From Myxococcaceae bacterium (lineage in GTDB: Bacteria; Myxococcota; Myxococcia; Myxococcales; Myxococcaceae), in contig JAFGNZ010000075.1 in NCBI GenBank assembly GCA_016926755.1, forward strand, positions 1 through 64,000: a DNA stretch of 64,000 nt, given 5' to 3'. Numbering within the stretch: the first letter of the stretch is position 1; each line of letters opens with the position of its first letter. The position numbers and the translations under genes are program-made. The notes beneath the pieces are model-generated. The model saw nothing but the letters and a program-made list of their open reading frames with translations. It made no database searches and was not told where the DNA came from. Below are positions 4,967 through 38,617 of the stretch, piece after piece.

Positions 4967-5923
4967 CTACGGACGCACGATAGCGTCCACCGGCACGGAA
5001 CGCTCGGGCGAGTACCCCCGGCGGCGGTTCTTCGCCCGCGAGAGGGCCAGGGAGAGCCCGGCCACCAGCACCACCACGGGCAGCACGGCCACCAGGTCCG
5101 TGGCGTAGTGGAAGCGCCCCGAGAGCGTCGCCACGATGAGGCCCATACCGGGCAGCAGCATGATCCAGAAGACCCGCCTCGCGAAGCGGAGCGCGTAGAA
5201 GAGCACCAGGAGCGTGGCCCCGGTGTGCCCCGAGGGGAAGCAGTCCCGGCTGAACACGGGGGTGCGCATCAGCGAGTCCAGAAACGGCGTCATGAGTGGC
5301 CCCGTGAGCGGCCCCGGGAAGGCGTCCAGGAGGAAGTAGCGCGGCCCGATCGCCGGCACCAGCACATAGGCCGAGTAGGTCAGCGTGAAGAAGACGCTGA
5401 GCCCCAACAGGTACTCATCGAAGGCCGTGATGCGCTTGTGGAGGTACAGCACGATCCCGAGCGTCAGGGCCCAGACGAAGTGGCCGTAGTAGCAGACCAT
5501 CAGCACGTCCTGGAGCCACGGCGGCACCGCGTTCGAGACCCACACCGAGACCTGGAAGCCGAACAGCCGCTCATCCAGCGCGGCGAGCTCCGCGTCCCGG
5601 AGGACGGGGTTGATGGCATCCACCAGCGGGTTGAGCAGCTCATGGCCCAACATCGCCACCGGCAGCAGCCAGAAGTCAGCCACCCACCCCAGCAGGCGAT
5701 TGCGAGGCCAGGTGGCCTGCAAGGTGCGGAGCACCAGGGGCCCCAGGGCGAACAGGGCGAAGCCCGCGGCGGAGGCAGGCGCCCCGGGAGCCCAGCGCGC
5801 CGGTCCCACGAGCAGCAGGGCCGCGATCGAGCAGGCGGCGACGATGACGAGATCCGCGCCCCGGAGGCGGACTTTCCGCGGGCTGTCGAGCAACCGCAGG
5901 CTCTCCATGGGCCAGGGGCTCAT
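4967..5923 (-). CDS. PAP2-superfamily membrane phosphatase / Aur1-like (IPC-synthase-like)
   Basis: CFPSGHTGATLLVL and GRFHYATDLVAVL PAP2 motifs; multiple TM helices; 4-bp overlap with downstream-coordinate MMPL gene start region. Confidence 0.85.
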   Translation of the reverse strand: MSPWPMESLRLLDSPRKVRLRGADLVIVAACSIAALLLVGPARWAPGAPASAAGFALFALGPLVLRTLQATWPRNRLLGWVADFWLLPVAMLGHELLNPLVDAINPVLRDAELAALDERLFGFQVSVWVSNAVPPWLQDVLMVCYYGHFVWALTLGIVLYLHKRITAFDEYLLGLSVFFTLTYSAYVLVPAIGPRYFLLDAFPGPLTGPLMTPFLDSLMRTPVFSRDCFPSGHTGATLLVLFYALRFARRVFWIMLLPGMGLIVATLSGRFHYATDLVAVLPVVVLVAGLSLALSRAKNRRRGYSPERSVPVDAIVRP

Positions 5924-8415
5924 GCCGACTTCCGCTCCTCCGAGGCAGCAGAGGGCTCGCTCGCCACGCCGATCTCCAGGCTCCGCACCACCGCACCCTC
6001 TCCTGCCCCCTGTCCCTCACGATGCTTCCAGCGCTCGATCAGCGCCAACAACGCTGGGAAGAACACTGTCGTTCCCAGGAAGGTGCACATGACCCCGAGG
6101 AGCGCAATCTGTCCGATGGAGCGCAGCCCCTGGTGGTTGGCCACCAGCAGCGCCCCGTAGCCCGCAGCGTTGGACAGCGTGGCCACCACCGCCGCCAGGC
6201 CCGTGTGCCGCACCACCAGGCCCAGGGAGCCCGGCCCCTCCTCCTCATACCGGTGGTAGAGGTGCACGGAGTTGTCCACCGCGATCGCCAGCAGGTTGGG
6301 CAGCACCACGGCGTTGATGAAGTTGAGCTGCACGTCGAACAGGTACATGCCCCCGGCCAGGCACACCATGCCGAGGAACAGCGGCCCCGCCACCAGCAGC
6401 GCGCGCCGGAGGCTGCGCAGGCTGGCCAGGATGGCCAGGAACACCACCACCGCCGCCGCGCCCAGGATGAACGGCCCGTCCCCGCGCACCAGCGCGAAGA
6501 TGCGCGAGGCGATGCGGTTGCTGTCCAGCACCGCCAGATCGATCCCCTTCGCCCGCGCCCCCTCCACCACCTCGTCCAGCTGCGCGGCCCAGCGGTGCAG
6601 CTCCCGCGTGTCGTAGTTGGACACCGAGGGGAACAGCAGCAGGAACATCCCCTTGCCATCCAGCGCCTCGAAGCGCCGGCGCGCCTCCACTGGCAGCTGC
6701 TCCACGCCGTAGGGCGTGGCCTCCAGCAGCTGCCGGAAGTCCTTCACGCGCTCATCCGCGGCCATGGGCTCGGGCAGGCGATCGATCAGCTCACGCAGGC
6801 GGGCGATCTCCGCATGGCGGCGCTCCACGTCGGCGGGCAGCAGATCGACGAGCGACGCGGACTGCTGGAACACGGAGTCCGCGCCGTGCCGCGCCTGCAC
6901 CTCGGAGATGATCTGCCGCACCGCCCGAGCCTGCTCCAGATCCTCCACCAGCAGGATGGCCGGGTTGAGCGGAGAGCCGAGCTGCGCGGTGATGTGATCG
7001 TCCAGGCGCGAGGAGGGCGAGTCCCCCTTCAGCTTGCGCATGTCCGTCTCGAAGCCGAGCCGTGGCGCCATGAAGGCCGAGAAGCCCGCGAACGCCACCA
7101 CCGCCAGCGCGATGCCGGACACGACGGGCGTGGACCAGCGCCGGCCCCCACGCGCCAGGGCGCTCTCGTGGGGAGCCTCGGCGACGGCGCTCCGGGGGCG
7201 CTCCGGGCGCAGGCGCTCGGCAAGCGACAGCAGCGACGGCCCCAGCCCGTACGCGGCGAGCACCGCCAGCATCACGCCGATGCCGGCCAGCAGGCCGAAC
7301 TGGTTGAACGCCTGGAACTGCGCGAACAGCAGGACGAGGAAGGCGGCCGCGTTGGTGATGGCCGAGGTGATGGCGCCGGAGAAGGTGCCCCGCACCGCCG
7401 CCGAGAGCGCCGCTGGCACGTCCTTGTCCCGCCGCTCCTCCCAGTAGCGCATGGAGAGGTGGACGCCGTACTCGATGCCCAGGCCGATGAGGATGGCCAC
7501 CAGGAAGCCCGTCACCACGTTCAGGTGGCCGATGGCCAGCTGCGCGAAGGCGAACGTGCAGGTGACACCCACCACCACCGGCAGGCCCACCACCGCCAGC
7601 GCCGACACGCGCCGCGTGGCCAGCAGGATGAGGCCCATGGCCAGCAGCGCGGACAAAAGGCCGGCGTTGGCCAGATCCCGCCGCATCACCACGTCCTCCT
7701 CGATGCGGCTCTGGAAGTTGCCTGTCGCGTCCACCTCCACGCCCGGGTAGCCCCTGGCCACCTCCGCGGCGACCGCCTTCGCCTCATCCACGAACCCGCG
7801 CGCGAAGCCCAGATCCGCCGCCGTCCCGGCCGGCTTCACCAGCAGGTACACCTCCCGGCCGTCCGCCGAGGCCAGGTGCTCCTTCACCGGCGCCGTCGTG
7901 TACCGGGCCTGGATCTCCTCGAGCGTGGGCGGCGCCTCCGTCTTCACCAGCTCCACGAAGAAGGGGTTGAGCTGCTGCCGCTCGTAGCGCAGGCGGTGCG
8001 ACAGGTCCTTGTACAGCGCCCGCAGGCGCTCGACCGGCATCAGCAGCAGGCCGTTGCGCTGGAAGAACCCCACGTCATAGCGGTGCTCCACGTAGCGCAC
8101 CTGCGGCAGCTTCTCCAGGCGGCCCTGCAACTCCGACGCGAAGGCCCGGAGCTGCTCGGGCGCGGCCCCTCTTCCCCGCAGCACCAGGTACCCATCCCCG
8201 CCCGCCTTCTGCGACACGCGCGTCAGATCCTGGACCTCGCGCGCGCCCTCGGGCAGCAGCTCCACGAAGGAGCCTCGGAACTCCAGCCGGGACGCAAGCA
8301 GCGCCCCTCCCAGCCCCAGCGCCATGAAGAGCGCCAGCACCCACCCAGGGCGCGCCAGCGCTGCCTGGAGGAACCGCTCGAACCATTGCTGACGCAGACT
8401 CTTCACCGGGTGCAC
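5920..8415 (-). CDS. RND/MMPL-family transporter (HpnN-like lipid exporter)
   Basis: 831 aa, two halves each with large periplasmic loop; GIEYGVHLSMRYWEE and IAVDNSVHLYHRYEEE TM4-type motifs. Confidence 0.9.
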   Translation of the reverse strand: MHPVKSLRQQWFERFLQAALARPGWVLALFMALGLGGALLASRLEFRGSFVELLPEGAREVQDLTRVSQKAGGDGYLVLRGRGAAPEQLRAFASELQGRLEKLPQVRYVEHRYDVGFFQRNGLLLMPVERLRALYKDLSHRLRYERQQLNPFFVELVKTEAPPTLEEIQARYTTAPVKEHLASADGREVYLLVKPAGTAADLGFARGFVDEAKAVAAEVARGYPGVEVDATGNFQSRIEEDVVMRRDLANAGLLSALLAMGLILLATRRVSALAVVGLPVVVGVTCTFAFAQLAIGHLNVVTGFLVAILIGLGIEYGVHLSMRYWEERRDKDVPAALSAAVRGTFSGAITSAITNAAAFLVLLFAQFQAFNQFGLLAGIGVMLAVLAAYGLGPSLLSLAERLRPERPRSAVAEAPHESALARGGRRWSTPVVSGIALAVVAFAGFSAFMAPRLGFETDMRKLKGDSPSSRLDDHITAQLGSPLNPAILLVEDLEQARAVRQIISEVQARHGADSVFQQSASLVDLLPADVERRHAEIARLRELIDRLPEPMAADERVKDFRQLLEATPYGVEQLPVEARRRFEALDGKGMFLLLFPSVSNYDTRELHRWAAQLDEVVEGARAKGIDLAVLDSNRIASRIFALVRGDGPFILGAAAVVVFLAILASLRSLRRALLVAGPLFLGMVCLAGGMYLFDVQLNFINAVVLPNLLAIAVDNSVHLYHRYEEEGPGSLGLVVRHTGLAAVVATLSNAAGYGALLVANHQGLRSIGQIALLGVMCTFLGTTVFFPALLALIERWKHREGQGAGEGAVVRSLEIGVASEPSAASEERKSA

Positions 8416-8549
8416 CCTCGCCGGGCCGCTCGAAGCAAACTTCCGGCCACATATCTGTCAGGGACCCGTCAACAAATCCAGGGGCGGAGGACTTCCAATG
8501 GGTTGGAATTCACCCTGGCACCGCTGCCATAGCTTCGAGAGGTGGCGCC

Positions 8550-8578
8550 TTGACAGTGTTGGAAAGCCTCTTTATTCA
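8550..8578 (+). promoter_or_regulatory. candidate sigma70-type promoter upstream of spt-like gene
   Basis: TTGACA (8550-8555), 17-nt spacer, TATTCA (8573-8578); -10 match weak. Confidence 0.35.
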
Positions 8579-8702
8579 CGGCCCCGCGTCGCCCGAGGAG
8601 GTCGCACGCTGTCACCAAGGGTGCGTCAGGCCGGGACGCGCCCTGAAAAATCGTGCGCGCCCCGGATCCGCGGATCCCCCGACGCAGACAGACAGGAACT
8701 TC

Positions 8703-10253
8703 ATGAGCGACGTCTTCGACAAGTGCCGTAGCTGGAAGGATTACCGCATCGCGAAGGCCACCGGCCTCTATCCCTACTTTCGCTCCATCGAGGCCTCACA
8801 CGGGGCGACCGAGGTCGAGATCGAAGGCCGCCGCGTCATCATGGTGGGCTCGAACAACTACCTGGGGCTGTCCGCGGATCCTCGGGTGAAGGAAGCGGCC
8901 ATCAAGGCGGTGGAGAAGTTCGGCACGACCTGCTCTGGCTCTCGCCTGCTCAACGGCACGCTGGCGCTGCACGAGGAGCTGGAGGTGCGGCTGGCCCGGT
9001 TCCTCAACCGCGAGTCGGCGCTGGTCATCTCCACCGGCTTCCAGACGAACCTGGCGCTGTCGTCCATCCTCGGCCGGCACGACATCGTCTTCAGCGATCG
9101 GCAGAACCACGCCTCGCTGGTGGACGGCATCCGGCTGGGGTTCGCCACGGAGCGCAAGTTCCGCCACAACGATCTGGATCACCTGGAGCAGCTGCTGGCG
9201 GCGGCCGAGCCGGACTCGGCCAAGCTCATCGTCACCGACGGCGTCTTCTCCATGGAGGGGGATCTCTGCAACCTGCCCCGGATCGTGGAGCTGGCCAAGA
9301 AGTACAACGCGCGGGTGATGACGGATGACGCCCACTCCATGGGCGTGCTGGGCGAGAAGGGCCGCGGGGTACCCGAGTATTTCGGGCTGGAAGCGGAGAC
9401 GGACCTGGTGATGGGGACGTTCTCCAAGAGCTTCGCGTCGCTGGGCGGCGTGCTGGCCGGCCCGTTCGAGGTGATCAACTACATCCGCCACAAGGCGCGC
9501 TCGGTGATCTTCTCGGCCTCCATGACGCCGGCCTCCATCGCGGCGGCGCTCAAGTCGCTGGAGATCATCGAGGCGGAGCCGGAGCGCCGCGCGCGGCTGC
9601 TGGACATCGCGGAGAAGATGCACAACGGCTTCCGGGCCATGGGGTTCGACACGGGCGTGTCGGTGACGCCGGTGGTGCCGGTGCACATCGGCGATCAGGT
9701 GAAGTGCTTCCGCTTCTGGAAGGCGCTGCACGAGGCGGGCGTCTTCGCCAACCCCGTCATCCCCCCAGCGGTGGAGGCGGGCCACGCGCTCATCCGCACC
9801 AGCTACATGGCCACGCACACGGACGCGCAGCTGGATCGCGTGCTGGACACCTTCGAGACGATCGGCCGGCGGCTGGGGGTGATCCCCGAGACGCGTCCCA
9901 CGGTGTACGAGCCGGTGAAGATCGCTCGGCCGGGCACGGGCGTGCGCTCCAACCGGGCCTCGGAGAAGTGGGCGGCGGGCTCCGCGGGGCAGCTGGCGGC
10001 CAAGGGCCTCACGCTGGAGCAGCTCTCGCGCATGTCCTCGCGAGAGATGGCCGGCAAGCTCTTCGACGCGGTGGAGCAGCTCACCTGGCGCGCCGCCAAC
10101 CTGCAGCCGGCGGATCTGCGCAAGCTGGGCGGCGCCTCCATGCGGCTGTGGGAGAAGCGCGGCGAGCTGCCCGGGCTGCTGCTGGAGAAGGGCGCGAACT
10201 TCTTCATGCGCAACGGCCACGATCAGAACAACAGCCAGGCCGAAAGGAACTAG
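8703..10253 (+). CDS. serine palmitoyltransferase-like alpha-oxoamine synthase with C-terminal extension
   Basis: GLYPYFRSIE, MVGSNNYLGLSADPRV, SGSRLLNGTLALHEELE, DGVFSMEGDLCNLP, MGTFSKSFASLGGVLAGP; closest by eye to Bacteroidetes Spt. Confidence 0.88.
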   Translation: MSDVFDKCRSWKDYRIAKATGLYPYFRSIEASHGATEVEIEGRRVIMVGSNNYLGLSADPRVKEAAIKAVEKFGTTCSGSRLLNGTLALHEELEVRLARFLNRESALVISTGFQTNLALSSILGRHDIVFSDRQNHASLVDGIRLGFATERKFRHNDLDHLEQLLAAAEPDSAKLIVTDGVFSMEGDLCNLPRIVELAKKYNARVMTDDAHSMGVLGEKGRGVPEYFGLEAETDLVMGTFSKSFASLGGVLAGPFEVINYIRHKARSVIFSASMTPASIAAALKSLEIIEAEPERRARLLDIAEKMHNGFRAMGFDTGVSVTPVVPVHIGDQVKCFRFWKALHEAGVFANPVIPPAVEAGHALIRTSYMATHTDAQLDRVLDTFETIGRRLGVIPETRPTVYEPVKIARPGTGVRSNRASEKWAAGSAGQLAAKGLTLEQLSRMSSREMAGKLFDAVEQLTWRAANLQPADLRKLGGASMRLWEKRGELPGLLLEKGANFFMRNGHDQNNSQAERN

Positions 10254-10259
10254 GCGCCC

Positions 10260-11438
10260 ATGGCCCTCCCTGCCGAGTCATCCACCGCCGCTGCCCTCCC
10301 CGCGATTCCGCCTGACGTGACCGTGACTCCCGTGAGGAGCAGCGCGGACAAGACCGCCTTCATCCGCATGGTCTACCCCCTCTACCGCGGCGACCCGAAC
10401 TGGGTGCCGCCGCTGGAGATGGAGCGCAAGGACTTCCTCGATCCGCGCAAGAACGCGTTCCTCGAGTTTGGAGAGGTGGAGCTCTTCCTGGCGCGGCGCG
10501 GCGGTGAGGTGGTGGGCCGCATCGCGGCGGTGAAGGATCCCCACTACAACGAGTTCCACGGCACCAACGATGGCTTCTTCGGCCTGTTCGAGTGTGTCAA
10601 CGACGCCGGGGTGGCTCGGGCCCTGTTCGACGCCGCGGCGCAGTGGCTGCGCGCCCAAGGCTTCGTCAACGTGCTGGGACCGATGAACTTCTCCACCAAC
10701 CACGAGGTGGGGCTGCTGGTGGACGGCTTCAGCACGCCAGCGGCGATCATGACGACGTACAACCCGCCCTACTACGGCGCGTTGATCGAGGCGTGCGGCT
10801 TCACCAAGGCGAAGGATCTGTTCTCCTTCGAGCTGTCCGCCTCGGCCGAGCCTCCGGAGAAGGTGGTCCGCATCGCGGAGAAGATGCGCCAGCGCGAGGG
10901 CATCACCGTCCGCTGCGTGAACCTGAAGGACTTCCCCGCCGAGGTGGTCAGGCTCAAGGAGATCTACAACTCGGCCTGGGAGAAGAACTGGGGCTTCGTC
11001 CCCATGACGGACCGCGAGTTCGATCACCTGGCGCGGGACATGAAGCAGGTGGTCCGGCCGGAGCTGGTCCTCATCGCGGAGGTGAAGGGCGAGCCCGTGG
11101 CCTTCTCCATCACGCTGCCGGACGCCAACGAGGCCCTCAAGGCCGCCAATGGCCGCCTCACCTCCTACGGCCTGCCGATCGGGCTGGTGAAGTTGCTGCT
11201 GGCCTCGCGGAAGATCCGCCGGCTGCGGCTCGTCACCCTGGGCATCAAGGAGGGCTACCGCCGCCGCGGCATCGACGCCATCCTGTACCTGGACACGCTG
11301 CGCACCGCGCGTCGGCTCGGCTACGAGGGCGGAGAGATCTCCTGGACGCTCGAGGACAACCACCTCGTGAACCGGGCGATCGAGTCCATGGGCGGCAAGC
11401 GCTCGAAGACGCACCGCGTCTACCAGCGCCCGCTCTGA
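10260..11438 (+). CDS. GNAT-superfamily acyltransferase; candidate bacterial ceramide synthase (bCerS-like)
   Basis: 392 aa; GNAT-like core LVTLGIKEGYRRRGIDAILYLDTLRTARRLGYEGGEISWTLEDN; starts 6 bp after spt stop. Confidence 0.7.
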   Translation: MALPAESSTAAALPAIPPDVTVTPVRSSADKTAFIRMVYPLYRGDPNWVPPLEMERKDFLDPRKNAFLEFGEVELFLARRGGEVVGRIAAVKDPHYNEFHGTNDGFFGLFECVNDAGVARALFDAAAQWLRAQGFVNVLGPMNFSTNHEVGLLVDGFSTPAAIMTTYNPPYYGALIEACGFTKAKDLFSFELSASAEPPEKVVRIAEKMRQREGITVRCVNLKDFPAEVVRLKEIYNSAWEKNWGFVPMTDREFDHLARDMKQVVRPELVLIAEVKGEPVAFSITLPDANEALKAANGRLTSYGLPIGLVKLLLASRKIRRLRLVTLGIKEGYRRRGIDAILYLDTLRTARRLGYEGGEISWTLEDNHLVNRAIESMGGKRSKTHRVYQRPL

Positions 11439-11445
11439 GGGCCCG

Positions 11446-12075
11446 CTACTTCTTCCCGGCCGGAGCCTGCTGGCCGCCCCCCGCGCTGATCTCGGAGGCC
11501 TTCGTGGTGGCGGCCGACTTCTCGAGCTGCTCCCGCTTGGCCTTCAGGGTGGAGAGCAGGCCATCGAAGCCCTTGTCGGCCATCAGCTTTCGGAACTGGC
11601 CGCGGTACGTCTCCACGAGGGAGACCTCGTCCGTGAGCACGTCATAGATGCGCCAGCCGCCGCCCTTCCCCTGCACCTTGTAGAGCTTGTAGTCGACCGG
11701 GACCTGATCGGTGTTCACCGTGAGGGTGGTGGTCACGGTGGCCTCATTGCCCTCGATGGTCTCCTTGCCGTACTTCACGTTGGCCTTGGCCTGGCCAATG
11801 GCCTTCTGGGCGTAGGAGGCGCGCAGCAGCCCCTTCATGGTGTCCGCGAAGTCCTTCTGCTGCGCGGGAGTGAGGGTGTCCCAGGTCTTGCCCAGGGCCC
11901 GCTTGGCGAGCTCCCCGAAGTCGACGAACTTCTCCACGACGGTGGCCAGCTGCTCGACGGTGGCGCCGGGCGCATTGGCGGCCTTCTGGACGTCCGTGTT
12001 GCCCGCCTTGACGACCTCGAGAGGCGTGGCGGGAGTGGCTGCGAGCAGCGTGGCGGCGATCAGCGGTGCGAGCAT
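11446..12075 (-). CDS. MlaC/Ttg2D-family ABC transporter lipid-binding protein
   Basis: FVDFGELAKRALGKTWDTLTPAQQKDFADTMKGLLRASYA ... VDYKLYKVQGKGGGWRIYDVLTDEVSLVETYRGQF. Confidence 0.88.
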   Translation of the reverse strand: MLAPLIAATLLAATPATPLEVVKAGNTDVQKAANAPGATVEQLATVVEKFVDFGELAKRALGKTWDTLTPAQQKDFADTMKGLLRASYAQKAIGQAKANVKYGKETIEGNEATVTTTLTVNTDQVPVDYKLYKVQGKGGGWRIYDVLTDEVSLVETYRGQFRKLMADKGFDGLLSTLKAKREQLEKSAATTKASEISAGGGQQAPAGKK

Positions 12076-12129: not shown

Positions 12130-13749
12130 TTATTCATTTCCCGCACGCGGCGTGCCGGTAACGCGGTCCAGCGCCGCTATTCCCACCCGGACGTCGAACC
12201 AGCTCTTCGCCTTGTCGGCCGACGCCTGGGCGAGCGCCGTGAAAGCGTCCACCAGCTCACGGGTGTCTCCGGTGCCGAGATCGAAGGCGGCGTAGGCGGC
12301 GGTGGACCAGCGCCGGGCATTCTTCTCCGCCTCGGTGAAGGCCTTGGCGCGCGCGAGCGCCGTCACCAGATCACCGTGGACCTTCGCCACCTCCAGGCGG
12401 ATGGCCGCCTGGAGCAGCCGCTGCTGTGCCTTGAGCTTGTCCAGCTCCGCGCGGGTCTGGGCGAGCTGCGCGTTCTTCATGGGGATGTCGAAGGTGCCGC
12501 GCGCCGCGAGGCCGATGCCCGCGGTGCGATCGTTATAGGGATCGTAGGCGAAGGGCGTGCGCTGGGGCGTGGCGTTGGTGGTGTAGGCGAACCGCGCGAA
12601 GCCGACGAGCCCGAGGTCCGGGTAGTAGGCGCGCTCGCGGATGATGACCTCCTGCTCGCGCGCGGCGATCCCCGCCTGGATGGCCACCAGCTCGGGCCGG
12701 TGCTGCTCGGCGGTCGCGAGCGCCTTGTCCAGGGAAGGAGGCGCGAACTCCTCCTCCAGCGGGAGCGCCACCGCGGTGACCTCCAGCGGCTCGCCGGGCC
12801 GAACGTTCGCCAGCAGCCGGATGGCCTCCAGCGCGAGCGCGCGCCCCTGCACGGCCTCGCTGCGTCGGGCCGCCACCACCTGCCGGAAGAAGTTCACCTT
12901 GTAGGTGTCCATGCGGGACACCTGCGCGGACTCCTCCGCGAGCAGCTCGTTGATGCGCTGCGCGGCGTCATCCAGCCGCTTCGCCGTCTCCTCCAGCTGG
13001 GTGATGCCCGAGCGCGCGAGCTGGTACCCGTAGAAGGCCTGTGCCGCCTGGAAGCCGGCCTCATCACGCGCCCGCTCGCGCAGCGCCGCGCCGATGATGG
13101 GCCCCTGATCGCCTGCCTTCTCCAGCGCCGAGAGCTTGCCGAACGTGTACAGCGGCAGCAGGGCGTCGATCTCCCCGCGGACCGTCACGCCCAGCGTGCC
13201 GAAGTTCCAATCTCCCTCCAGCGTGGCCTCCGTCGTGGGCGGACCTCCGAGCCCGTCGTTGCGGGCCTCGGGGACGGGGCCGCCGAAGCCCACCACCGTC
13301 TCGAACTTGGGGAACCACGCCCAGTGGGCCTGGCGCTGGAGCGCTTGCAGCCGACGCAGCTCCGCCTCGGCCTCCTCGACGCGGGCGTCCGTGCGGCGCG
13401 CGCTCTCCACGAGCTGCTCGAGCGTGATGCGCGTGCTCCTGGGCGGAGGCTGGCCCTCCGTGGCAGCTGGCGCCCCCTGCTGTGCGGCCTGGCTCGCACC
13501 CTGGGCTGCCTGCCCCTGGGCCTCCGGGGCCGCCAGGTCCGCGGGCTCTCCAGGGAGCGCCGCGGGAGTGTCCGGCGCCGGCGCGGGAGTGGTGCCCTGG
13601 GTTCCGGGGATCGGCGTCGAGGCGCCCTGCCCTCCCGGAGCGGGTGCAGGAGCGCCTTGTGTCACCCCCGGTACATTCTGCGCAGTCGCCGTCCCGGCGG
13701 CGAGCGCCAGCCCCACCCCCACGAGATGTCCGAGCACTGTCCGGTTCAC
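12130..13749 (-). CDS. TolC-family outer membrane efflux protein with P/A/G/Q-rich N-terminal linker
   Basis: Internal TolC repeats (EAEAELRRLQALQRQAHWAWFPKFETVVGFGG ... LVAIQAGIAAREQEVIIRERAYYPDLGLVG); signal peptide after GTG start. Confidence 0.85.
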   Translation of the reverse strand: MNRTVLGHLVGVGLALAAGTATAQNVPGVTQGAPAPAPGGQGASTPIPGTQGTTPAPAPDTPAALPGEPADLAAPEAQGQAAQGASQAAQQGAPAATEGQPPPRSTRITLEQLVESARRTDARVEEAEAELRRLQALQRQAHWAWFPKFETVVGFGGPVPEARNDGLGGPPTTEATLEGDWNFGTLGVTVRGEIDALLPLYTFGKLSALEKAGDQGPIIGAALRERARDEAGFQAAQAFYGYQLARSGITQLEETAKRLDDAAQRINELLAEESAQVSRMDTYKVNFFRQVVAARRSEAVQGRALALEAIRLLANVRPGEPLEVTAVALPLEEEFAPPSLDKALATAEQHRPELVAIQAGIAAREQEVIIRERAYYPDLGLVGFARFAYTTNATPQRTPFAYDPYNDRTAGIGLAARGTFDIPMKNAQLAQTRAELDKLKAQQRLLQAAIRLEVAKVHGDLVTALARAKAFTEAEKNARRWSTAAYAAFDLGTGDTRELVDAFTALAQASADKAKSWFDVRVGIAALDRVTGTPRAGNE

Positions 13750-14004
13750 CGATAGCCTCGTTCGCGGCCCGCCTCTTCGCACGGACCGCGGCCGCGCAGC
13801 ATCCATCTTCGCGGGGGCTCCGTCACCGCTTCTTTACGCTTCCCGGCGCTCCGCCAGGCGAACCCCGCTCCTCACTGTGCCGGGGCGTACGGACGCTGAC
13901 ATTTTTCGCGGGATCTCCTTGGCGCTCCGCGAGGCGAGAAGCACAATCCGCGCCGTTCCGACCGGCCCGGCCTCTCCGCCGCGGCCTCGAGACCAGGGAG
14001 CCTT

Positions 14005-35418: not shown

Positions 35419-36942
35419 TCACGGCGTGGGTACGGACGGGAGCAGGGCCTTCAGGTCGTCGTCCGTGAAGAAGATGCCGCCGCCGAAGAAGAAGTCGCGG
35501 CCGGCGATCAGGCGGTTGGTGGCGGTGTCGCGCTGCTGGGCGTTGAGGATGTCGTCCATGCCGGCGATCACGAAGAGGTGATCGAAGGCCTGGGCCCTCA
35601 GCGTGGCGCGCAGCCGCGGGTAGCGCAGCTCCTCCGCGGAGAAGTTGAACGCGTCCAGCTTCAGCTCCAGCACGTCCTCCAGCATGTGCAGATCCGCGCC
35701 CACGCCGCCGGTGGACTCGATCAGGCCGAAGCGCAGCGTGGTGAAGTAGTAGCGCTTGGCGAACTGCGCGCTGATCTTGTAGGTCTCCTTGATGATCTTC
35801 TGCGTCTGCACCACCGGCTGCCCCGAGCCTGGCGGGTTGTTCTGCACCACCTGCACCTCCACCAGGCCGCGGGGATCGTCGATGATCTCCAGCAGGTAGT
35901 ACTTGTCCGGCTTGGGGATGAGCCGCAGCGAGATGCCGTTCTTCGCGCGGCCCTGGGACATCAGGTAGGAGGCGTTCAGCCCCACCTCCGTCTGCAGGCC
36001 GGTGAGCCGGTTGACGTAGTCCGAGGCGTCCGACACCGCGTCCGTGAACTTCTGGCCCAGCGCCCTGTCCGTCAGCAGCGTGCCCACCACGCCCTCGCCC
36101 TCGCGCACGTTGTGGGTGATCTGCTCCAGGTTGCCCAGCGTCCGGTCCAGCTTCTGGACCGTCTCCTTCAGGCTGGCCACGCCCTCCTTGAGATCGCCCT
36201 CGTTGGCGCCCACCACCTTCTTCACGGTGGCCAGCACCTCGCGCACGTCCTCGGTGATGTACTCGATGTTGTCGACGATGCGCGTCACCTCCGCCTGGTT
36301 CTCCTGCGTCAGCCCGCGCACGTCGTCGGAGACGCCCTCGAAGTTGACCAGGATGGCGTTGAGCCGCTCGCCGCTGGAGCGCACCGTGGCGTCCACGGAC
36401 TCGGACAGGCGGATCAGGTTCTCCACGATCCGCTGCAGCGAGCCGGCGCCCCGCTCGCCGCCCAGCACGTCCCGCAGCGCCGCCGTCACCTGCTGGATGT
36501 CCGCGGTGATCTGGCTGAGGGACTCGAACACGGCCTCCATGCCCTGGGTGTCAATCACCCGGCGGATCTGCCCGTTGTCCTGCATGCGCGGGGTTTTTTC
36601 GGTGCCCGGGTTGAGATCCAGCAGGTAGTCGCCCAGCAGGGACTCGGAGCGCTTGGTGAGGACGGCGTCCTCGTGCAGCTCCACGTCATCGCGGATCCGC
36701 AGCCACACCTTGGCGCGGGTGCCCTCCAGGGTGATCTGGCTGATCTCCCCCACGGGGATGCCGGCGATCTGCACGCGGCTCTTGGGGCTCAGGCCCGAGG
36801 CATCCCGGAAGTACGCCCAGACGTCGATGGACTCCTTCTCGCTCAGGCCTCCCTTCCGCGCGAACATGAAGAACGCGAAGAAGAAGGCCCCGGCGGTGAG
36901 CACCAGCAGTCCTACACGGAACGGCGTGACGAGCTTCTTCAC
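35419..36942 (-). CDS. long MlaD-type MCE protein with helical tail and C-terminal beta-rich (barrel-like) domain
   Basis: N-term TM + GLSPKSRVQIAGIPVGEISQITLEGTRAKVWLRI; long amphipathic helix; C-term YYFTTLRFGLIESTGGVGADLHMLEDVLELKLDAF ... FFFGGGIFFTDDDLK. Confidence 0.9.
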   Translation of the reverse strand: MKKLVTPFRVGLLVLTAGAFFFAFFMFARKGGLSEKESIDVWAYFRDASGLSPKSRVQIAGIPVGEISQITLEGTRAKVWLRIRDDVELHEDAVLTKRSESLLGDYLLDLNPGTEKTPRMQDNGQIRRVIDTQGMEAVFESLSQITADIQQVTAALRDVLGGERGAGSLQRIVENLIRLSESVDATVRSSGERLNAILVNFEGVSDDVRGLTQENQAEVTRIVDNIEYITEDVREVLATVKKVVGANEGDLKEGVASLKETVQKLDRTLGNLEQITHNVREGEGVVGTLLTDRALGQKFTDAVSDASDYVNRLTGLQTEVGLNASYLMSQGRAKNGISLRLIPKPDKYYLLEIIDDPRGLVEVQVVQNNPPGSGQPVVQTQKIIKETYKISAQFAKRYYFTTLRFGLIESTGGVGADLHMLEDVLELKLDAFNFSAEELRYPRLRATLRAQAFDHLFVIAGMDDILNAQQRDTATNRLIAGRDFFFGGGIFFTDDDLKALLPSVPTP

Positions 36943-37021
36943 CTGGGGTGACTCCGAGTGCTTCCGGCCTTGGCGACTCTAGCGGTTTGAGGCCCGCGTG
37001 CCAGCATTTCCCTGTGCATGG

Positions 37022-37801
37022 CTAGTTCTTCCCGAACCACGTCTCCAGGAAATTCCGCACGACGGGATGCTGGGACTCGCGCAGCTGTTCCGGCGGGCCG
37101 AACTCCACGATCACCCCCTTGGACAGGAAGGCGATGTAGTCCGCCACGTTGAAGGCCGAGGAGATGTCGTGGCTGATGACGACGCTGGTCACCTTCAGCT
37201 TGGCCTGGGCCGCCAGGATCATCTCGTCCACGTAGGCGGTGGTGATGGGATCCAGGCCCGTGGTGGGCTCGTCGTAGAGGACGATCTTCGGCTCCAGCAC
37301 CACGGCGCGCGCCAGGCCCACGCGCTTGCGCATGCCGCCGGACAGATCGGCCGGGTACCTGCCCTCCACGGAGGCAGGCAGGCCCATCAGGTCCAGCTTG
37401 GCGCGGACGAGCTGGCGCACCTGCTCCTCGGACATCTCCTTGCGGTGCTCGCGCAGCGGGAAGGCCACGTTCTCGAACACCGTCATCGAGTCGAAGAGGG
37501 CCGCGGCCTGGAACACCATGCCGAACTTGCGCCGCATCTTCTCCAGCGCCGCGTCCCCCAGCGGGACGATGTCCTCGCCGTCCACGATCACCTGGCCATG
37601 GTCCGGCTTGAGCAGGCCGATCATGTGCTTCATCAGCACCGTCTTGCCGGAGCCGGAGCCCCCGAGGATGACGCAGGTGCTCCCCTCGGGGATGGTGAGG
37701 TTGATGCCGGTGAGCACCTTGTGCTCGCCGAAGGTCTTGTGCAGATCGATGATCTGGATCATCGGCCGCCCGGGGGCGGCGGGGGCGGAGTCGGTGACCA
37801 T
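37022..37801 (-). CDS. MlaF-like ABC transporter ATPase
   Basis: ILGGSGSGKTVLMKHMIGLLKP, LSGGMRKRVGLARAVVLEPKIVLYDEPTTGLDPI. Confidence 0.95.
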   Translation of the reverse strand: MVTDSAPAAPGRPMIQIIDLHKTFGEHKVLTGINLTIPEGSTCVILGGSGSGKTVLMKHMIGLLKPDHGQVIVDGEDIVPLGDAALEKMRRKFGMVFQAAALFDSMTVFENVAFPLREHRKEMSEEQVRQLVRAKLDLMGLPASVEGRYPADLSGGMRKRVGLARAVVLEPKIVLYDEPTTGLDPITTAYVDEMILAAQAKLKVTSVVISHDISSAFNVADYIAFLSKGVIVEFGPPEQLRESQHPVVRNFLETWFGKN

Positions 37802-38617
37802 CTAGTGCAGCATCACGCCGACGAAGAAATCGAGGATGAAGATGGAGAGCGCGCTGGCGACCATGGCCTGGGTCGTCGCCTGGCCCACGCCCTTGGCGCC
37901 GCCGGAGGCGTTGTAGCCCTTGTAGCAGCACACCAGCGTCACCGAGAGCCCGAAGATGGCGCCCTTGATGAGGCCCTCGTAGAGATCGATGGGATCCACC
38001 CACTGCTGCGTGCGGCTGAGGAAGGTGCCGGCGGAGATGCCCTTGGCGATCACGGACACGAAGTAGGAGCCGGCCATGCCCGTGGTGTTGAAGAGCATGG
38101 TGAGCACGGGGACCATGATCAGGCCGGAGAGCACCCGGGGCACCAGCAGGTACTGGATGGGGTTGACGGCCATGGTCTCCAGCGCGTCCACCTGCTCGGT
38201 GACGCGCATGGTGCCCAGCTCGGTGCACATGGCGGAGCCGGCGCGCATGGTGACCATCAGCGCGGAGAACACCGGGGCCAGCTCGCGCGTGAGGGTGAGC
38301 GCCACCGTGGGGCCCACCATGCTCTCCGCGTCGAACAGCTCGAAGGCCCGCGAGGACTGGTGGGCGAACACCATGCCGGTGAAGACGCCGGTGAGCGCCA
38401 CGATGAAGACCGAGCCCACCCCCACGAAGTCCAGCTGCGCGAAGAGGTTGTGCAGCCGGTACGGCCGCCTGGCGGACCAGCGAGCGACCTGGAAGCCCAG
38501 CCACGTCACCCCGCCAATGTCGGAGATGACGCGCATGGCCCCCTTGCCGAAGTTCTCGATCGACTGGAGGAGGTAGTGGGGCTCCTTGGGCGCCTTGTCT
38601 GCGTTCTCGGTAGCCAT
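37802..38617 (-). CDS. MlaE-like ABC transporter permease
   Basis: TGMVFAHQSSRAFELF, TRELAPVFSALMVTMRAGSAMCTELGTMRVTEQVDALETMAVNPI. Confidence 0.95.
   Translation of the reverse strand: MATENADKAPKEPHYLLQSIENFGKGAMRVISDIGGVTWLGFQVARWSARRPYRLHNLFAQLDFVGVGSVFIVALTGVFTGMVFAHQSSRAFELFDAESMVGPTVALTLTRELAPVFSALMVTMRAGSAMCTELGTMRVTEQVDALETMAVNPIQYLLVPRVLSGLIMVPVLTMLFNTTGMAGSYFVSVIAKGISAGTFLSRTQQWVDPIDLYEGLIKGAIFGLSVTLVCCYKGYNASGGAKGVGQATTQAMVASALSIFILDFFVGVMLH

Follow-up and report, generated by a model that had tools for sequence, protein, structure and literature searches.

The 64,000-nucleotide stretch analysed here (the window) is taken from Myxococcaceae bacterium (NCBI GenBank assembly GCA_016926755.1, contig JAFGNZ010000075.1, positions 1 to 64,000 of the forward strand) and contains a putative sphingolipid-backbone operon with several lipid-related neighbours. 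A gene for a predicted serine palmitoyltransferase (SPT) of the Bacteroidota/delta type (spt, 8703–10253, plus strand; Aminotran_1_2, 2.6e-54) is followed, after a gap of 6 bp (10253 to 10260), by a gene for a GNAT-type homologue of the bCerS/CerS/YghO family (10260–11438, plus strand; Acetyltransf_1, 1e-8), referred to here as bCerS. Divergent from spt, on the minus strand, are the genes of an HpnN/BstA-type MMPL RND lipid transporter (5920–8415; PF03176 MMPL, 8.2e-40) and of a PAP2_3 membrane enzyme, a candidate ceramide head-group transferase or lipid phosphatase (4967–5923; Pfam PF14378 PAP2_3, 4.7e-11), and the two genes share 4 bp (5920–5923). Convergent with bCerS is the gene of an MlaC/HpnM-type periplasmic lipid carrier (11446–12075, minus strand; PF05494 MlaC, 1.7e-37). 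The gene of an OEP/TolC-like outer-membrane protein (12130–13806; PF02321 OEP, 8.3e-24) is also on the minus strand, 54 bp upstream of mlaC.

According to the open reading frames and Pfam searches, the genes, strands, 6-bp gap and 4-bp overlap described in an earlier note on this DNA are all present, and the OEP gene is a further member of the neighbourhood, beyond the genes named there. The end of the SPT gene at 10253 also stands, but its start does not lie at the upstream TTG. The longest SPT open reading frame starts at this TTG (8550), whereas the homologues begin at the position of ATG 8703; thus, SPT is taken as a protein of 516 aa. A scan of the SPT–RND divergent region for promoters and terminators found none. 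The same note proposed a synteny check in other myxobacteria. The arrangement recurs in relatives, and the SPT-GNAT-CerR order recurs across phyla, so that a chance arrangement is no concern. In the Myxococcus/Pyxidicoccus locus (L067, L068 and L073; L numbers denote compared loci, G000 the genome of the window and other G numbers related genomes), PAP2-RND is likewise divergent from SPT-bCerS and MlaC-OEP is convergent, whereas cerR is retained between bCerS and mlaC.

The product of 8703–10253 scored 511.8 bits with the NCBIfam SPT model NF047600, as against 380 for BioF and 363 for Kbl. Among PDB entries, the Sphingobacterium SPT structures gave 400 bits and Kbl gave 257, and the sequence was aligned with 8guh and 3a2b. 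In an alignment of 24 sequences, the residues K242, H136, D208, H211 and R365 are invariant. The α-oxoamine synthase signature is present, with K242 as the pyridoxal phosphate lysine, H136 as the stacking histidine and R365 as the carboxylate-binding arginine. The Spt-like gene of the earlier note is upheld as SPT, since by the NF047600 and PDB scores its product is closer to SPT than to Kbl, BioF or ALAS. Myxobacterial SPTs have been grouped in one subgroup with Bacteroidetes SPTs (PMC9386255). A C-terminal extension of ~120 aa (9876–10253, plus strand) is kept in the SPTs of the same order and is missing from E. coli SPT in the alignment. This extension has no Pfam match, and its predicted structure is uninformative, being modelled as low-confidence helices with a predicted local distance difference test score (pLDDT) of ~45–55.

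Over 383 aa, the GNAT-type protein shares 35% identity with YghO of E. coli BL21 (E 9e-79). YghO is encoded in the sphingolipid cluster of that strain, and its orthology with Caulobacter CC_1154 has been published (PMC9386255); our comparison was made to this orthologue in place of the CC_1154 sequence. A search of the genome of the window with YghO gave 10260–11438 as the sole match, in single copy, and all 73 family genomes of high quality carry bCerS. A bCerS scan of public genomes gave 80 named loci, and 62 of these lie outside the close myxobacterial set. Among the 62, SPT is located within 1.5 kb of bCerS in 32 and a CerR-like gene within 1.5 kb in 27, and at least one of the two is on the locus in 42. 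Thus, bCerS relatives adjoin SPT and CerR in many phyla. No relative of the GNAT was found among the PDB structures. The bCerS assignment, which rests on homology and neighbourhood, is strong, and the note's proposal of this GNAT as bCerS is confirmed by the full-length YghO homology, the sole genome copy and the linkage to SPT across loci. Taken jointly, a Bacteroidota/myxobacterial-type SPT at 8703–10253 and bCerS at 10260–11438 are almost certainly the correct identities, a strong inference. As a separate observation, a second bCerS-like gene (53–59% identical to that of the window) follows CerR in L031, L034, L040, L046, L074, L075, L076 and L077, giving the order SPT-GNAT-CerR-GNAT.

In the pathway proposed for this locus, SPT would form 3-ketosphinganine by condensing serine with a fatty acyl thioester, and this product would be N-acylated by the neighbouring GNAT-type bCerS. 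As cerR is lost from the genome, the reduction would probably be carried out by an unlinked gene of the CerR radiation (contig C97, 1897–2874). The divergent PAP2_3 enzyme would act on the ceramide product, either transferring a phospho-head group or dephosphorylating ceramide phosphate, and the RND protein of the HpnN type, together with MlaC and OEP, may move the lipid to the outer membrane. As a whole, this explanation is probable.

All six other genomes of the genus, like most relatives, have cerR directly 3' of bCerS, with products ~30% identical to E. coli CerR, and cerR occupies the bCerS–mlaC junction in L022, L033, L036, L037, L039, L042 and L045. At the window locus, cerR is missing and the junction (11439–11445) is empty, with the bCerS and mlaC stop codons only 7 bases apart. 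The statement that CerR lies outside the window was thus correct; beyond the view of the note, most relatives have CerR as the gene after bCerS, and this genome has lost it. No close CerR was found in G000, and the best match to myxobacterial CerR, at 36%, is on contig C97. The bCerS loci of G013, G014, G017, G022, G023 and Corallococcus also lack cerR. On a tree of 29 SPT–bCerS pairs, the presence and absence of cerR need a minimum of five state changes. If cerR was ancestral, these changes are all losses, in this genome and in no fewer than four other related lineages. By hand count, a CerR orthologue is present in 32 of 86 sampled family genomes, and close bCerS without CerR in 30.

The short-chain dehydrogenase/reductase (SDR) of contig C97 (SDR2, 1897–2874) is present in 76 of the 86 family genomes. 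It falls inside a 64-row clade (support 83/97, moderate) together with E. coli CerR and with CerRs linked to SPT in many phyla, and five other SDRs of G000 fall apart from this clade. This unlinked member of the CerR radiation is the best candidate replacement for the reduction step, and we lean slightly towards it. The C97 SDR was also considered as a relocated cerR, which was rejected according to the 36% identity and the separate clade. The gene is followed by a HAD-family gene (L055:1142-2874), and in relatives also by a lactate-racemase-N-domain gene. Elsewhere in the tree, the CerRs of two Streptomyces and of Streptoalloteichus (L084, L086 and L087) nest in the Myxococcaceae CerR clade with bCerS on the same locus, and it is likely that the ceramide pathway was transferred to Actinomycetota in these cases.

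In the window PAP2, the motifs RDCFPSGHT and RFHY..D are invariant in the alignment. In further families of the order (L028, L029, L030 and L032), relatives 39–47% identical lie divergently beside SPT, with different flanks and no RND gene. According to a subfamily profile, members of the PAP2 subfamily are directly 3' of CerR in L094, L113, L125, L134, L135 and L138; in L088 a member lies downstream of bCerS, and in L087 one precedes SPT. The AlphaFold model (pLDDT 88) has Aur1 (9ivc) and inositol-phosphorylceramide synthase (9vj4) as its top PDB matches, at E values of 1.5e-4 and 2.1e-4 and with TM-scores of only 0.44–0.58, and the next matches are LpxE and the human sphingomyelin-synthase-related protein. 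The likeness to Aur1 and inositol-phosphorylceramide synthase thus holds at the level of the fold, as these are the best structural matches, whereas the TM-scores are modest and the second motif is PSGH, not PSLH. For Aur1 itself, the second motif is presumably of the PSLH type, and the window PAP2 has FPSGHT instead. On account of the SPT- and CerR-linked relatives and of the structural matches, a role in the ceramide pathway is likely for the window PAP2, with head-group transferase and phosphatase both as candidates. The head-group role suggested in the note is therefore supported in its link to ceramide synthesis, and head-group transfer is one of the two candidate activities.

Another PAP2 of the same genome bears on the head-group step. 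Contig C337 of G000 (L155:4951-10843) carries an apparent inositol-lipid cluster with myo-inositol-phosphate synthase (MIPS), an AUR1-like PAP2_3, a CDP-alcohol transferase fused to a GtrA domain, a dual-specificity-type phosphatase and a fatty-acid hydroxylase. This cluster, in which MIPS is accompanied by a PAP2_3 with PSLH, weakens the case for inositol-phosphorylceramide synthesis by the window PAP2 alone. Myxococcus xanthus has been reported to contain ceramide phosphoinositol (work cited in PMC9246714). The locus L085 (1330–12131), ~11 kb of a Myxococcales metagenome-assembled genome, combines OEP, MlaC, CDP-alcohol transferase, HAD, PAP2_3, MIPS, fatty-acid hydroxylase, SPT, bCerS and CerR, and may be regarded as a nearly complete candidate inositol-ceramide cluster. 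Contig C139 of G000 (L156:5732-7535, minus strand) has a PAP2_3 gene that matches the window PAP2 profile and is overlapped by a gene for a fatty-acid desaturase.

As for transport, the RND protein (5920–8415) scored 263.5 bits with TIGR03480 (HpnN), for which the cut-off is 751.85, and 236.9 bits with NF045600, also under the cut-off; its PDB matches are HpnN/RND structures (5khn and 6wu0). The description "HpnN-like" is fair as a statement of similarity only. MlaC (11446–12075) exceeds the cut-off of the Pfam MlaC domain (129.2 against 26 bits), and it lies under both NCBIfam cut-offs (HpnM 89.8 against 160.1, MlaC 38.5 against 195 bits). A search of the genome for squalene/hopene cyclases gave none over the threshold, the best score being 36.4 bits against a cut-off of 322.7. 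Hopanoids were thus rejected as the cargo of the HpnN-type RND, and sterols are likewise improbable. In comparison with HpnN/HpnM hopanoid transport, the window RND is of the same superfamily and the carrier is of the MlaC/HpnM type, whereas both proteins fall under the family cut-offs and no hopanoid cyclase was detected. Probably, these HpnN/HpnM-like proteins carry something other than hopanoids or sterols.

The genome has two MlaC genes, each with an HpnN-type RND gene within ~4 kb. An HpnN-type RND gene is also immediately upstream of SPT in L023 and L081. OEP and MlaC are near SPT in L023, L081 and L085, in a different arrangement in L023 and L085, and most OEP-bearing relatives have it paired with mlaC, as do L085 and L025. 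The RND, MlaC and OEP proteins are the best local candidates for sphingolipid transporters, a tentative assignment to which we give somewhat less than even weight. The narrower proposal, that the HpnN-type RND, the MlaC/HpnM-type carrier and OEP form a dedicated myxobacterial sphingolipid export route, unlike the LptFG2-type route proposed for Caulobacter, is rather doubtful. Of the export role given in the note, the presence of RND and MlaC-type genes holds, and sphingolipid export by them is a plausible candidate role.

Several observations weigh against parts of the proposed pathway. The SPT score is under the curated NF047600 cut-off (511.8 against 640 bits); since this cut-off is passed by none of 39 myxobacterial genomes, the model seems to be narrow to Bacteroidota. 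The FPSGHT motif of the window PAP2 contains PSGH, which is common in phosphatases, and the MIPS-linked PAP2 of C337 has PSLH (MPSLHAA). By hand count, the C97-type SDR is present in 29 of the 32 genomes with CerR and in 28 of the 30 without; this shows no association, and the C97 SDR as a specific compensation for cerR loss was rejected. In two draft genomes with bCerS (G058 and G089), neither CerR nor the C97-type SDR has a match. RNDs from more than one subfamily occur at SPT loci, and orthology therefore gives no backing to a shared function. G001, G003, G004 and G005, of the same genus, have no RND or PAP2 orthologue genome-wide, and they retain SPT-bCerS-CerR-MlaC-OEP despite this loss. 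Finally, an operon for an MlaE-MlaF-MlaD-type ABC lipid transporter lies 23 kb off in the window (35419–38617, minus strand) without its own MlaC, and the MlaC considered here could serve it instead.

These observations give room for other explanations. The SPT score under the NCBIfam cut-off, together with high cross-scores of the BioF and Kbl models, would suit another α-oxoamine synthase with Kbl or BioF activity; as the SPT models and structures outscore Kbl and BioF by far, the adjacent partner gene is bCerS and the genome holds three more α-oxoamine-synthase-like genes, this is extremely improbable. The strain might make and use 3-oxo-ceramide, left unreduced without cerR to give keto-sphingolipids: the state of cerR changes at least five times, and deletion of cerR in Caulobacter yields oxidised ceramide (PMC11087976). 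Against this, G000 carries a gene of the CerR radiation, and a homologue of the Bacteroides-type ketosphinganine reductase has been reported for Myxococcus (PMC9278070), and so we regard unreduced products as improbable. This reductase, BT_0972, reduces 3-ketosphinganine (PMC9278070), and a classical BT_0972/KDSR-type SDR with homologues in Myxococcus could act before acylation, making CerR redundant and easily lost, in keeping with its repeated loss. About half of the family keeps CerR, which is therefore not generally redundant, and reduction before acylation is unlikely, though less so than unreduced products.

A further explanation accepts the backbone genes as a sphingolipid operon and separates the neighbours from it, with MlaC serving MlaEFD and glycerophospholipids, RND-PAP2 forming an unrelated lipid module and the synteny being only inherited order. 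The MlaE, MlaF and MlaD genes in the same window and the loss of RND and PAP2 as a pair, while the backbone stays, are in agreement with it, as are aminotransferase, mutase and aldolase neighbours that are equally conserved in the family and have no obvious lipid role. It does not readily account for the PAP2 relatives that adjoin SPT between different flanks in other families or come after CerR in other phyla, nor for MlaC-OEP near SPT in another arrangement in L023 and L085, the latter beside a CDP-alcohol transferase and MIPS. We consider this separation the less likely view and retain a backbone operon with functionally linked neighbours. The earlier description of synthesis, head-group transfer and export as encoded together is nevertheless too strong, in view of the joint loss of RND and PAP2 in four genomes, the MlaEFD alternative and the separate C337 cluster.

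Spt, bCerS and CerR are known across many phyla (PMC11334938), and so are myxobacterial sphingolipids (PMC9246714). The core enzymes have been stated to occur in all sphingolipid-making bacteria, and the order of reduction after acylation is disputed (PMC11087976). According to papers of 2024 (PMC11087976, PMC11324152), bacterial sphingolipids had no known flippase or carrier. What appears to be new is that an otherwise conserved operon has lost cerR repeatedly, that a PAP2 neighbour recurs across phyla and that transport candidates can be named; part of this may already be noted in the study defining bCerS and CerR. The dispute on the order of reduction becomes testable in natural knock-outs, the myxobacteria in which Spt-bCerS persists after repeated loss of cerR. 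The locus also supplies specific transport candidates, making the carrier question testable, and it is now possible to distinguish the window PAP2 from the C337 PAP2_3 as candidates for the head-group step.

In the inositol-ceramide cluster BT_1522–BT_1526 of Bacteroides thetaiotaomicron (PMC9246714), an AUR1-like PAP2 acts on dihydroceramide, which resembles the step considered here; the better counterpart in G000, however, is contig C337 and not the window PAP2. The cluster of Caulobacter crescentus and E. coli BL21 (aasR, cerR, acpR, spt and cerS) shares with the window homologous, clustered genes for SPT and a YghO/CerS-type acyltransferase. Bacterial cerS has been described as always lying in another operon (PMC11324152); the window bCerS sits 6 bp 3' of spt. 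The window locus differs from this cluster in having no acyl carrier protein, acyl-carrier-protein synthetase, cerR or LptF/LptG copies, and in its SPT, which belongs to the Bacteroidota/delta subgroup and carries the C-terminal extension.

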